DNA of 64,000 nt from Rhizorhabdus histidinilytica. GTDB lineage: Bacteria; Pseudomonadota; Alphaproteobacteria; Sphingomonadales; Sphingomonadaceae. Location: positions 310,001 through 374,000 of the forward strand of contig NZ_FUYM01000003.1 in NCBI RefSeq assembly GCF_900167915.1, in the 5' to 3' direction. The position numbers and the translations under genes are program-made. A model generated the notes under the pieces. That model saw only the letters and a program-made list of their open reading frames with translations, had not been told where the DNA came from and did not search any database. Positions 5,582 to 49,358 of the stretch are shown here, one piece after another. Each line of letters begins with the position of its first letter. Within the stretch, counting starts at the first letter, position 1.

Positions 5582-5598
5582 GTCTGGTGGGTCCGCCG
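5582..5598. repeat. attL core (17 bp)
   Basis: gtctggtgggtccgccg is identical to 49280-49296. It is the orphan copy of the tRNA-Lys 3' end left at the far side of the prophage. Confidence 0.9.
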
Positions 5599-6061: not shown

Positions 6062-6454
6062 TCAGGCCGCCCAAGCTTCCGCCGGGTCGAACGGCTGAGC
6101 CGCATCGCCGTCAATTGTCGGGTCGTCCCCTTCCATGTTGATCAGGATCACCAGGCCGAGCGTGGCGCCTTCGAGGTGCGCGCCCTTCACGCGCTCGACG
6201 ACCGCGCGGACATCATAGCCCCGGTCGATCTTGCTGCCGATCCAACTGGCGTGCTCGGCGGCGAGATAGCCGAGTTGAACGCCTCGGCAGGAGAAGATCG
6301 CGACGGCGGCCGGATCATATTCATTGGCCGGCTCGCGGATGAGGTTGACGCGCTCGCCGCGCGCGCAACGGCGCAGCTCGTCCTGCCGGCTGGACCCGTC
6401 GGCATTCGGATATCGCTCGCCCCGCGCCGCCAGCCGGAAGTCGTTCCACCCCAT
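6062..6454 (-). CDS. HIRAN-domain protein
   Basis: 130 residues consisting of little more than one HIRAN domain. The typical pattern is present: GERYPN near the start, R-containing strand, NEYDPAAVAIF near residue 45, and GYLAAEHA about ten residues further on. In HLTF/Rad5 helicases this OB-like fold binds DNA 3' ends; stand-alone copies occur in phages and defence-linked operons with unknown roles. A strong ribosome site (GGAGGGG) supports ATG 6454. A LexA box 21 bases upstream suggests damage-induced expression. Confidence 0.75.
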   Translation of the reverse strand: MGWNDFRLAARGERYPNADGSSRQDELRRCARGERVNLIREPANEYDPAAVAIFSCRGVQLGYLAAEHASWIGSKIDRGYDVRAVVERVKGAHLEGATLGLVILINMEGDDPTIDGDAAQPFDPAEAWAA

Positions 6455-7730: not shown

Positions 7731-8492
7731 CTAAGGTGAGATTTGCTCACCATAATCAGGCTTCGGGAACGGCAGCGCGGGGTATCGGCATGCCTTCGCG
7801 AACCGGGGCTTCAGGAACCGCAGATATCGAAACTGCCGCAGCTTGTGCATGGTCGCCCGGTCGCGGTTCGCGCGCAGGTGCGCGGCGCGCGGACCGATCG
7901 ACTTGCCGTTCGTCATGAGGCTGTCGTGATACCAATCCCCGTCCAGTTCCCAGAAGCGGCCCAGATGCTCGCCATGGAAGGTGAAGCCAGCCGCCTGATA
8001 GACCGTGCCGAACAGGCCGCAGCGCTCGTCGGCGAATGACTGTATCCATTTGACCGCTGGCCGGATGCGGCGGATCAGCCGGATCGAGAAGGCAAGCGCC
8101 CGGCTTTCGCTGTTGCGCGGCGCGCTGTCCGCCAGCCACATGCGATTGAGCTCAAGATATTCGGTCATGAGCGTGCCGGTGACGACGCTCCCAGCCGAAG
8201 CCGGATTCATCGCATAGCCGTATTGCAGCACGCCTTCGAAGCGCCCGCCGACAAAGACGCCAAGGTGCAGCGTCGAGGCCGAATAGACGCGGCGGCTGTA
8301 GTGGTTGGCGATGATGGTCGCGTTCGCCAGCGCGCGGTCAATGACGGCGACATAGAAGCCCGCCTCGCCGAAGCCGATGGCCTCGCGCTTGCCGAGCGCG
8401 TCGCCTGCCTGGTCAAAGATATATCCGGCGCATTCGCCGGCAGTGCCGCCGATCGGGATGATCGGCGCATTCAACGTCGTGTGAGACTCCAT
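7731..8492 (-). CDS. mom: Mom-family adenine modification protein
   Basis: 253 residues closely resembling phage Mu Mom, a GNAT-fold enzyme that turns adenine into N6-carbamoylmethyl-adenine and so hides phage DNA from host restriction. Shared blocks are ANHYSRRV, VLQYGYAMNP, EYLELNRMWL, APRNSESRAL, VKWIQSFADERCG, YQAAGF, DGDWYHDS and the C-terminal RQFRYLRFL. Conservation of these blocks suggests an active enzyme. It stands alone near attL, divergent from higBA, with a long hairpin-rich leader and no good ribosome site, which hints at post-transcriptional control as in Mu, where the zinc protein Com is needed. No Com homologue lies next to it. Confidence 0.88.
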   Translation of the reverse strand: MESHTTLNAPIIPIGGTAGECAGYIFDQAGDALGKREAIGFGEAGFYVAVIDRALANATIIANHYSRRVYSASTLHLGVFVGGRFEGVLQYGYAMNPASAGSVVTGTLMTEYLELNRMWLADSAPRNSESRALAFSIRLIRRIRPAVKWIQSFADERCGLFGTVYQAAGFTFHGEHLGRFWELDGDWYHDSLMTNGKSIGPRAAHLRANRDRATMHKLRQFRYLRFLKPRFAKACRYPALPFPKPDYGEQISP

Positions 8493-8562
8493 GGGGGTTT
8501 GGCCCTAGATGGTCCCGCCCGGTGCACGGGTGCGGGATCGTAGCGGCTGGCCGGCCGCGCGT

Positions 8563-8645
8563 GACGAGGTGCTAAGGCTCGTCGGTTTCCGGGTTGCAGC
8601 CCGGAACCCCCGCCCGGCTGAGTTTTACGGGAAAGTCGTAAAACT
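8563..8645 (-). ncRNA. Three tandem hairpins in the mom leader
   Basis: Stems pair 8563-8568 with 8578-8583 (6 bp), 8587-8593 with 8600-8606 (7 bp) and 8621-8629 with 8637-8645 (9 bp). A fourth, imperfect GC-rich fold lies nearer the mom start (8512-8539). As part of the mom mRNA these would form a structured 5' leader. The region is non-coding on both strands. Confidence 0.5.
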
Positions 8646-8720
8646 ACCGTGCGGACGTGTCTTCAGATAGGCTCTGGATCAGGGGCGGCCCGCGAAAAGG
8701 ACCCGCTCTCCCACACTAGC

Positions 8721-8749
8721 TGTATGCCTGATCGTCAGTCGATGGTCAA
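8721..8749 (-). promoter_or_regulatory. Candidate sigma-70 promoter for mom
   Basis: On the minus strand TTGACC (8749-8744), a 17-base spacer and CATACA (8726-8721). It would give a leader of roughly 220 bases. The -35 box is eight bases from the first HigA operator. Confidence 0.4.
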
Positions 8750-8756
8750 GAAAAAT

Positions 8757-8818
8757 GTATGGTGATACCATACTTTTCTGTTGCACGGCCCGCCCCTTCG
8801 TGTATGGTGTGAGCATAC
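8757..8818 (+). promoter_or_regulatory. higBA promoter with two HigA operator copies
   Basis: GTATGGT-GAT-ACCATAC (8757-8773) is a perfect palindrome; a weaker copy GTATGGT-GTG-AGCATAC lies at 8802-8818. The promoter TTGCAC (8781), 16 bases, TATGGT (8803) has its -10 inside the second copy. A third copy occurs ahead of higA. Confidence 0.65.
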
Positions 8819-8832
8819 AGGGAGGAACGGCG

Positions 8833-9132
8833 ATGCAGATTATATCGGTTCGGGACAAGCGGGTTAAGGCTTTGGTCGAGGATGACACCCTGACGGCGGT
8901 TCGCGGCTTCACCGCTCTTGAAGTCCGCAAGATCGCCGAGATGATCGTTGCCATCCGCGTGATGACCGACCCGGCCCAACTCGCCGCCTTCCCCGCATGG
9001 CGCGCCCATGAACTGAAAGGCCAGCGGGCCGGGACGTGGAGCCTGACCGTCACCCGGAACTACCGCCTTACCTTCCTCGTCGACATCGAGGCGCAGACCG
9101 TCGCGGTGATGGATTACGAGGACTATCATTGA
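8833..9132 (+). CDS. higB: HigB-type toxin (RelE superfamily mRNA interferase)
   Basis: 99 residues of the HigB/RelE fold. Typical features are MQIISVRDKRVKALV at the N-terminus, AFPAWRAHELKGQRAGTWS in the middle and the NYRLTFLV and AVMDYEDYH strands at the end. The toxin cleaves ribosome-bound mRNA. GGAGG lies eight bases before ATG 8833. The toxin precedes its antitoxin, the usual HigBA order, with an unusually long 101-base gap that carries another operator. Confidence 0.85.
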   Translation: MQIISVRDKRVKALVEDDTLTAVRGFTALEVRKIAEMIVAIRVMTDPAQLAAFPAWRAHELKGQRAGTWSLTVTRNYRLTFLVDIEAQTVAVMDYEDYH

Positions 9133-9233: not shown

Positions 9234-9608
9234 ATGTCCAAGCGCAACCCTGACGAATTCAAGATCACCGACCCGGCGGAAATGCTGGTGACGAAGCAGC
9301 CGCCGATCGACAAGCACCCCGGCGTCTTTCTGCGCGAAACCATCCTGCCCCAATGGGGTTTGAACGTCGCGGAGGCGGCGCGCCGGCTTGGCGTCAACCG
9401 GCCGAACCTCCACAACGTCCTTCAGGGCAAGGCGGACGTGTCGCGTGATCTCGCCTATAAGCTCGGCGCGCTGATGCGTGACGAGGTCGCCGACCTCCTG
9501 ATCGCCCACCAGCTCCAGTATGATCTCGCGCGCGAGCGGGAGAAGCGGGAGGCGTTCAAGGCGACGATCGAGCGCATGCAGCCGGTCGCGCAGAGTGAAG
9601 ACGCATGA
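9234..9608 (+). CDS. higA: HigA-type antitoxin (XRE family)
   Basis: 124-residue antitoxin and autorepressor. The HigA signature HPGVFLRETILPQWGLN opens the domain, followed by the XRE helix-turn-helix AARRLGVNRPNLHNVLQG and a C-terminal helix rich in charged residues. ATG 9234 is preceded by GGAGGAG. It should bind and neutralise HigB and repress at the 17-bp operators. Its TGA overlaps the ATG of the next gene. Confidence 0.85.
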   Translation: MSKRNPDEFKITDPAEMLVTKQPPIDKHPGVFLRETILPQWGLNVAEAARRLGVNRPNLHNVLQGKADVSRDLAYKLGALMRDEVADLLIAHQLQYDLAREREKREAFKATIERMQPVAQSEDA

Positions 9609-15178: not shown

Positions 15179-16044
15179 TAGGCCATGTCCCCGGTCAGAG
15201 TGGTGTTGTCGGCCGTGACGCTCGTCCGGTCCGCGCTGGTGCCGTCATCGTTCAAGATGATGCCGGTCGCGGTCCTGGTTCCAACGCCGGTCACGGTGAG
15301 GGTCAGGAGATAGCTTTCGTCGAACTCGGGCAGCAGGTCGCCCTGAATGCTCCAACTGATCGTCTTGGTGGTCTCGCCGGGGCCGAAGGTTCCCGACCCC
15401 GAGGGGAAGACGCCGCCGGCGAAGTCGCTGGCGTTCGCGGGGCGAACGCCCGTACCGCTGATCGACCAGTTGAAGGCATAGGAACCGTTGGAGCCGTTGC
15501 GGTTGAGCGTGGCCGTCGCGGTGCGACCGACCGTGCCGGTGTTGCCCTCGGTCGCCGGGGCAATGGCCGATAGTGATATGCTCGGCGGGTTGGCGGGCAG
15601 GTCCGCCTGGTTGACGCGCACGATCTCCTTGCAGAGCTCGAAGGTCGGCGAGACGGTCAACGCGCTGTCTGCGCCGTCGACGTTCTCTGGCCAGCCGAAC
15701 GCCTTGCCCTGAGAATAGCGGATCGCACCGCTCGGATAGATGGTCCGGGAGGCGAAGAGATCATTGTTCTTCGGGTCGGCCGCGATGCGGAACAGCGCCT
15801 GGCCGGCGTCCTCATCATCGAGCAGCATGTTAGGCTGCAGCGTGCCGTAGTCAGCGCCGCCCTTGTGCTTCTGCTTCGCACCGATCAGCGGCTGAAATTC
15901 GATCTTTGCCGATACCGGCCCGATCGCGCCGAGCTTCTCGATACCACCGACCTCGATCCACGGCAGCAAGGCGTAATCGGCGGCAGTTTCGCCCGCTGGC
16001 AGCGTGGCGGACAGGGCGAACGTCGTGCCCGAGGCGCTTCCCAT
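15178..16044 (-). CDS. Second tail-tube paralogue fused to a Calx-beta domain
   Basis: 288 residues. Residues 1-145 align without large gaps to the tail-tube protein at 27105-27554: both share EVGGxEKLGAIG, GTLQPNM, DAGQ, AADP/FADP, IRYS and PENVDGAD blocks. Residues 150-280 form a Calx-beta type domain (PPSISLSAIAPATEGN, PANASDFAGGVFPSGS, ESYLLTLTVTG). ATG 16044 was chosen because homology begins there. Its place among fibre genes suggests a decorated tube subunit or a tail-tip ring. Confidence 0.75.
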   Translation of the reverse strand: MGSASGTTFALSATLPAGETAADYALLPWIEVGGIEKLGAIGPVSAKIEFQPLIGAKQKHKGGADYGTLQPNMLLDDEDAGQALFRIAADPKNNDLFASRTIYPSGAIRYSQGKAFGWPENVDGADSALTVSPTFELCKEIVRVNQADLPANPPSISLSAIAPATEGNTGTVGRTATATLNRNGSNGSYAFNWSISGTGVRPANASDFAGGVFPSGSGTFGPGETTKTISWSIQGDLLPEFDESYLLTLTVTGVGTRTATGIILNDDGTSADRTSVTADNTTLTGDMA

Positions 16045-27104: not shown

Positions 27105-27554
27105 TTAGGGGGCAGAAACCTTGACGATCTTGCGGGTCAGCTCGATCGTCGGGGTCTCGGTCAGGGCCGCATCGGCGCCGTCCACATTCTCGGGTGAGCC
27201 GAAGACCGGGCCACCCGAATAGCGGATCGCGCCATCCGGATAGACCACCTTGGTGCTCAGCTCATCCTTGTTGTCGGGATCGGCAAAGGTGCGGATGATG
27301 GTCTGGCCGGCGTCGTCATCGTCGTGCAGCATGTTGGGCTGCAGCGTGCCGTGATCGGCCGACCCCTTCAGCTTGAGCTTCGTGCCTTTGAGCAACAGAA
27401 ACTCGGTCTTGTTCACCGACGCGCCGATCGCGCCGAGCTTTTCGACGCCTCCGACTTCGGTCCAGGTGAGCGCCACATAACCCGCAGCGTCTTCGGTTGC
27501 CGGCTTTGCGGCGGATACGGAGAGCGTCGTGCCCGCCGCGGTACCTCCACCCAT
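27105..27554 (-). CDS. Major tail tube protein
   Basis: 149 residues. Its place directly before the G/GT chaperones and tape measure, its size and the beta-rich sequence (EVGGVEKLGAIGASVNKTEF, ADHGTLQPNM, IELTRKIVKV) fit the tail tube of siphophages, whose subunits stack into the hollow tail. An excellent ribosome site (AAGGAG) precedes ATG 27554. A longer paralogue with an added domain is encoded at 15178-16044. Confidence 0.82.
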   Translation of the reverse strand: MGGGTAAGTTLSVSAAKPATEDAAGYVALTWTEVGGVEKLGAIGASVNKTEFLLLKGTKLKLKGSADHGTLQPNMLHDDDDAGQTIIRTFADPDNKDELSTKVVYPDGAIRYSGGPVFGSPENVDGADAALTETPTIELTRKIVKVSAP

Positions 27555-29746: not shown

Positions 29747-29992
29747 TTACTTCTCGTCGTCGGCCTTGAGACCGAGGTTGCGCGCCACGGCGACATGGCC
29801 GGGGATGGTCGGATCGTTGAAATCGATCCGGTTCTGATCGGCGGTCGTGTTCGCGCGCGGGTCGTTGTCAACCGCGGGGTGATCGAGGTTGACGTCCGGG
29901 ACGATCTGGGCGGGAGCGCCCGACGGGTCGATCGTGGTGGCCGGGGCGACGCCGTTATCACCGGCCGGGGCGTCGGCTTTCTTGGTGGTCAT
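29747..29992 (-). CDS. Small Pro/Ala-rich phage protein
   Basis: 81 residues from ATG 29992, low-complexity N-terminal half (KKADAPAGDNGVAPATTIDP) and a C-terminal DPTIPGHVAVARNLGLK. It lies between capsid and connector genes and is flanked by GC-rich hairpins (30048-30073 and about 29690-29722). It may be a head decoration or fiber-like protein; no family recognised. Confidence 0.55.
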   Translation of the reverse strand: MTTKKADAPAGDNGVAPATTIDPSGAPAQIVPDVNLDHPAVDNDPRANTTADQNRIDFNDPTIPGHVAVARNLGLKADDEK

Positions 29993-49279: not shown

Positions 49280-49296
49280 GTCTGGTGGGTCCGCCG
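49280..49296. repeat. attR core (17 bp)
   Basis: gtctggtgggtccgccg, identical to 5582-5598, covers the CCA end and acceptor 3' strand of tRNA-Lys. Integration therefore leaves the tRNA intact. Confidence 0.92.
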
Positions 49297-49358
49297 GGAT
49301 TCGAACCCGGGACCTCTCGATTAAAAGTCGCTTGCTCTACCGACTGAGCTACGGACCC
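49283..49358 (-). tRNA. tRNA-Lys (anticodon UUU)
   Basis: On the minus strand GGGTCCG...CGGACCC acceptor stem, D-arm GCTC-AGTCGGTA-GAGC, anticodon loop CTTTTAA (UUU) and a TTCGAAT T-loop, followed by encoded CCA. Only three clear pairs form in the anticodon stem, with the two outer positions mismatched, which is unusual. The 3' end is the phage attachment site. Confidence 0.93.

Follow-up and report, generated by a model that had tools for sequence, protein, structure and literature searches.

In com/mom regulation of the phage Mu type, com lies upstream of mom and overlaps it, and the late promoter requires the activator C. The com/mom leader of Mu forms a translation inhibition structure, which is opened by the Com protein (PMC6483171). 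The mom locus presented here resembles that of Mu in its Mom homologue, in a folded RNA ahead of the start codon, and in a weak ribosome site. It differs in the absence of Com, in its five conserved helices, which do not resemble the hairpin of Mu, in having no conserved block of the start codon, and in a leader shared with D12 and com-C5 methyltransferase genes.

Weinberg et al. are said to have described in 2017 a D12-methyl RNA motif, a candidate leader located upstream of D12 methyltransferase genes. The RNA presented here is likewise a candidate cis-acting element before D12-class DNA methyltransferase genes. However, it also precedes mom and com-C5 genes, and leaders of its type match no Rfam model even at E ≤ 10. 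The locus is also reminiscent of morons, prophage accessory genes with their own promoter, as mom lies close to an attachment site and next to a HigBA pair, and apparently has its own transcription start. In contrast to morons, it is headed by a conserved structured RNA that is found in several types of phage.

Mom gene and the prophage carrying it

The window, which is the whole 64,000-nucleotide stretch of Rhizorhabdus histidinilytica DNA that was analysed, contains mom on the minus strand (7731–8492, ATG at 8492). The gene encodes a Mom DNA adenine modification enzyme of 253 residues. The protein matches PF25680 over residues 46–244 (E 5.3e-66), which constitutes a full-length family match, and also phrog_1384 (E 1.4e-52) and the solved Mom structure 8bv8 (E 1.4e-62). 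It is 47% identical to Mu Mom in the alignment and retains the blocks HYS, HLGV, ELNRMWL, RNSES, WxQSFADERCG, and VYQA, which agrees with the claim of an earlier note on this DNA that every conserved block of the Mom family is present. Judging from these matches, mom is an intact gene. A search with the Com family PF10122 yielded nothing over the cut-off in the whole genome of the host, so the absence of a neighboring Com, claimed in the same note, extends to the entire genome. Because the intact mom has a structured leader and no Com, any RNA-based control must rely on something other than Com.

The element bearing mom is a complete tailed prophage with an integrase, terminase, portal, head protease, major head protein, and tape measure. 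Its ends are identical 17-bp repeats GTCTGGTGGGTCCGCCG, attL at 5582–5598 and attR at 49280–49296, neither of which is assigned a strand. The attR repeat overlaps the 3′ end of tRNA-Lys (49283–49358). Near attL, the minus strand encodes a HIRAN-domain protein (6062–6454, PF08797 E 7.5e-14) with weak matches to the candidate defence proteins PDC-M03B. The segments 15760–16041 and 27264–27545 are 70–73% identical, lie 11504 bases apart, and are perhaps a duplicated module of the tail region. ARAGORN calls a tRNA-Phe at 29788–29869 on the plus strand, which does not reach the Rfam gathering score and is probably spurious.

Anatomy of the leader RNA

The leader RNA of the window occupies positions 8502–8660 of the minus strand and is matched by the covariance models R1 and R2 with 124 and 118 bits, respectively. 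From 8660 to 8512, it is composed of five helices, P1–P5. Helix P1 (8610–8654) has a CCGC/GCGG base, in which positions 8654–8651 pair with 8613–8610, as established from pair counts and the MFE structure. Beyond the base, P1 continues into a long variable extension, formed by AGTTTTACG/CGTAAAACT in the window copy. Helix P2 (8584–8608) is built by GGUUCCGGG and CCCGGA-A-ACC, with the A bulged, and has the strongest covariation of all the helices. Helices P3 (8563–8583, GACGAG/CUCGUC), P4 (8543–8558, GCGGC/GCCGC), and P5 (8512–8539, UCCCG/CGGGA, inner CCCG/CGGG) were delimited by pair counts and mutual information. The three tandem hairpins described previously are real and correspond to P1, P2, and P3; that description was incomplete, since P4 and P5 had been overlooked.

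The linker between P5 and the start codon (8493–8511, minus strand) contains a weak Shine-Dalgarno (SD)-like AGGG at 8506–8503 and has fixed spacing across the copies of the RNA. This AGGG, about 11 nt upstream of the ATG, is the only candidate ribosome site, in line with the claim that mom has no good one. In most copies, 23–28 nt separate the end of P5 from the ATG, with a short SD-like GAG, GGA, or AGGG at near-constant spacing in between. This distance would fit translational control.

Conservation begins abruptly at ACACG (8660 in the window). The adjacent stretch at 8661–8672 of the minus strand is AT-rich and contains a candidate −10 element, TATCTG; over 30 copies, the AT content here is 61–64%, compared to about 42% further upstream. 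The 30 copies share no −35 element upstream of the RNA. Because conservation starts at 8660, directly after this −10-like stretch, the leader is probably about 168 nt long; the earlier note was right that there is a leader, but not about its length of roughly 220 nt. It had also tied the leader to a possible promoter beside HigA operators. We rejected a HigA-linked mom promoter, as the sequences upstream of the other copies are unrelated and a promoter scanner found no promoter for mom. The HigA operators lie further upstream, outside the conserved element, and the HigBA pair next to mom is incidental. It consists of a HigB-like toxin gene (8833–9132) and an HTH antitoxin gene (9234–9608), both on the plus strand and divergent from mom. 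An inverted repeat accompanies them at 8757–8773, and the pair is not kept beside the RNA elsewhere.

The Mom and D12 proteins that follow the RNA have a common start, ATGGAGTC or ATGGAAAGC, encoding Met-Glu-Ser (8492–8485 in the window). The GAGTC within it agrees with GANTC, and GANTC is the CcrM methylation site of alphaproteobacteria. At two mom loci (L032 and L033), a mini-ORF ATGGACCTTGAAAAGTGA located between P5 and mom extends over the GTG at which mom presumably starts, suggesting that the two are translationally coupled.

Comparative evidence for a conserved fold

The same block of 130–160 nt is positioned directly before mom in about 20 loci of relatives, and the sequence beyond it is unrelated. 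Eighteen leaders were aligned by sequence alone, without fitting to a structure. In this alignment, 97% of pair cells are canonical and 12 pairs are changed on both sides; none of 500 shuffles reached its covariation score, and slid controls were at most 44% paired. Covariance model R1 was built from these 18 leaders and used to collect 45 copies, from which the second model, R2, was derived. The alignment of 45 copies was fitted to the structure and is hence biased towards it; in it, canonical pairs fill 94% of the pair cells, both-sided changes occur at 29 of the 35 pairs, and none of 500 shuffles matches its score. Pairs of the model rank top in mutual information.

Folded as a single sequence, the window leader is moderately unusual, with energy z-scores of −1.5 (241 nt) and −2.7 (150-nt core). 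Across the leaders, the z-scores range from −1.2 to −4.8 and are moderately low, as expected for GC-rich sequence. The proof of the five-helix structure is therefore comparative. A search of Rfam 15 returned nothing relevant for the window leader at E ≤ 1, nor for seven related loci at E ≤ 10. We are highly confident that the leader is a real conserved structured RNA, and it represents a family absent from Rfam 15.

Additional pairings were considered. RNAalifold proposed that the 5′ strand of P5 pairs over a long range with GCGGGG. This is compatible with the alignment, but only near-invariant positions speak for it, and it was rejected; P1 and P5, unlike this alternative, carry both-sided pair changes. 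A closing helix in which the 5′ ACACG would pair with the GUGAGC tail was discarded, as it gave no improvement over tails swapped among the sequences. Inspection by eye found no consistent complementarity for kissing between the loops of P2 and P5.

Genes downstream of the RNA

A scan of 398 Sphingomonadaceae genomes with R1, in which no protein was used, identified 34 genomes with a match at E ≤ 0.1, the weakest of which are probably chance matches. The gene after the RNA is mostly a D12-class N6-adenine DNA methyltransferase (PF02086) and sometimes mom; in one genome, the RNA is followed by a Com-like protein gene overlapping that of a C5 cytosine methyltransferase. The exceptions are interrupted, decayed, or weak matches (L110, with a transposase, and L119, L122, L126, L128, L130–L132, and L154). 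In samples of the order and the class, R2 detected the RNA in 14 genomes, all Sphingomonadaceae, and in one genome from another alphaproteobacterial family (L156), where it precedes a D12 gene.

Viral contigs were searched by three DNA-pattern scans followed by R2, which gave 25 contigs with the RNA, a few near-duplicates and the prophage of the window included. The next gene belongs to DNA modification in 24 of the 25: mom in 12, D12 in 11, and com-C5 in 1 (L185). The remaining contig (L140) is cut off at this point, and mom is known on the same contig. Loci with the RNA before a D12 gene adjoin integrase, tail, head, or lysis genes. The leader is thus reused before three unrelated DNA-modification units: mom, D12 methyltransferase, and com with C5 methyltransferase. 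Like a cis-regulatory leader, the RNA combines a covarying structure with a fixed site ahead of genes that all belong to one functional class. The nearest relative of a mom leader is often that of a D12 gene, and vice versa (L099 before mom and L113 before D12 are 88% identical), and the leader therefore moves as a module between unrelated genes. Deposited phage records contain no DNA match, and a single plasmid match was found, in Sphingomonas paeninsulae. A search of a collection of papers returned no account of an RNA motif before phage methyltransferases, or of Mom in Sphingomonas.

Since the leader also precedes D12 and com-C5 genes, it is not specific to mom and is no simple stand-in for Com. 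Of the 37 genomes that contain the RNA or a close mom, 36 yielded no Com (PF10122). Where the two co-occur, com is the first gene after the RNA; RNA and Com are therefore not simple alternatives, and the RNA does not simply replace Com. The gene after the RNA at L123/L149 (G286:C3) and L185 encodes a Com-like zinc protein and overlaps a gene for a C5 cytosine methyltransferase, so Com may serve genes besides mom; in G286, a D12 gene comes next after the com-C5 unit. At L037, which has the arrangement of Mu, a Com-like ORF (PF10122 E 2.8e-7) lies directly upstream of mom and overlaps it, and no leader RNA was detected. Two further mom loci without the RNA (L034 and L102) share another block, strongly conserved and about 120 nt long, at about 150–330 nt upstream of mom, which is possibly a second type of leader.

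Possible modes of action

We hypothesize, with reasonable but limited confidence, that the folded 5′ leader of about 135–160 nt acts in cis and independently of Com. Its transcription would begin at a start of its own near 8660, and it would act on the mRNA that carries it, most likely by gating the initiation of mom translation, as P5 ends at the edge of the ribosome footprint and the SD-like sequence is weak. On balance, we also favor conditional control of translation. A factor of the host or phage, or a ligand, could bind at the conserved loops and junctions, and DNA modification would in this way be made at the right time. The leader would then play in sphingomonad phages the part that leader and Com together play for Mu mom, although its structure differs and Com is absent. 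The earlier note had proposed leader-based control by another activator. Its premises hold as regards the intact mom, the structured leader, and the missing Com, whereas a Mu-like block of the start and a role of HigA are not supported; an activator is one possibility beside repression, a riboswitch, or a leader for constitutive translation or stability.

The last of these would make the leader a fixed 5′ stabiliser or ribosome-recruiting platform, with no switching, for an accessory gene that has a weak ribosome site and its own promoter. The fixed distance to the start codon, the weak SD, the absence of a conserved start-codon block, and the occurrence of the same leader before unrelated enzymes are all consistent with it. 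We nevertheless consider it unlikely, since the invariant junctions and loops exceed the needs of a stabilising hairpin, and the association is confined to DNA-modification genes instead of accessory genes at large.

A riboswitch, binding a small molecule tied to the lytic state or to the modification of DNA, could explain why a compact RNA of several helices, whose unpaired positions are highly conserved, adjoins the start codon. Methyltransferases use S-adenosylmethionine; Mom is not known to do so, and a substrate shared by the two is therefore not obvious. Together with the absence of a match to Rfam riboswitches, this makes such a sensor very improbable.

The conserved block could also matter as DNA, its palindromes belonging to a recombination or packaging site that travels with the gene. 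Its sharp 5′ boundary and exchange between genes would suit such a site, as would the lack of a clear overall G-U excess: G-U cells number 37 against 43 A-C cells over all 45 rows, and 16 against 7 in the 30 best rows. As the excess is missing over all 45 rows, the strand of the RNA was assigned mainly from position. However, the block is always in sense orientation at a fixed distance from the start codon, the extension of P1 is variable, and the asymmetric loops and the bulge are conserved, which leaves a DNA-level function only a slight chance.

A separate small RNA, cut or terminated from the leader and acting in trans, would agree with the compact independent fold, but there is no terminator downstream of P5 and the RNA is strictly tied to the start codon of the gene that follows, so that we deem it highly improbable.

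Finally, we give virtually no credence to true Mu-type control, in which a structure blocking the start codon is opened by a Com encoded elsewhere: the window Mom is homologous to Mu Mom, which is controlled in this way (PMC6483171), but Com is missing over the cut-off from the same genome, as from nearly all the others, and occlusion of the start is not conserved. The start region is not paired to a greater extent than when tails are shuffled: over 33 loci, its accessibility equals that with shuffled tails and is lower in only 16 of the 33; the value is 0.34 against 0.47 for the window alone.

Implications for the timing of phage DNA modification

Control of mom by an RNA leader, as the present comparison indicates, need not involve Com. 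More important than the mom locus itself is an RNA family, absent from Rfam, that is common to DNA-modification genes of Sphingomonadaceae phages. As the same conserved RNA precedes mom and two unrelated kinds of modification genes, these phages appear to have one control element in common for the disguise of their DNA. We tentatively speculate that the RNA is a dedicated portable switch, which would place Mom, D12, and com-C5 under one RNA sensing the lytic state or a host factor; if so, only DNA due for packaging would be disguised. The family supplies natural variants for tests and a sequence marker for finding more modification genes in alphaproteobacterial phages. Detailed knowledge of the timing of phage DNA modification comes mainly from Mu, and one RNA before three unrelated modification systems offers a second, independent route to the question.
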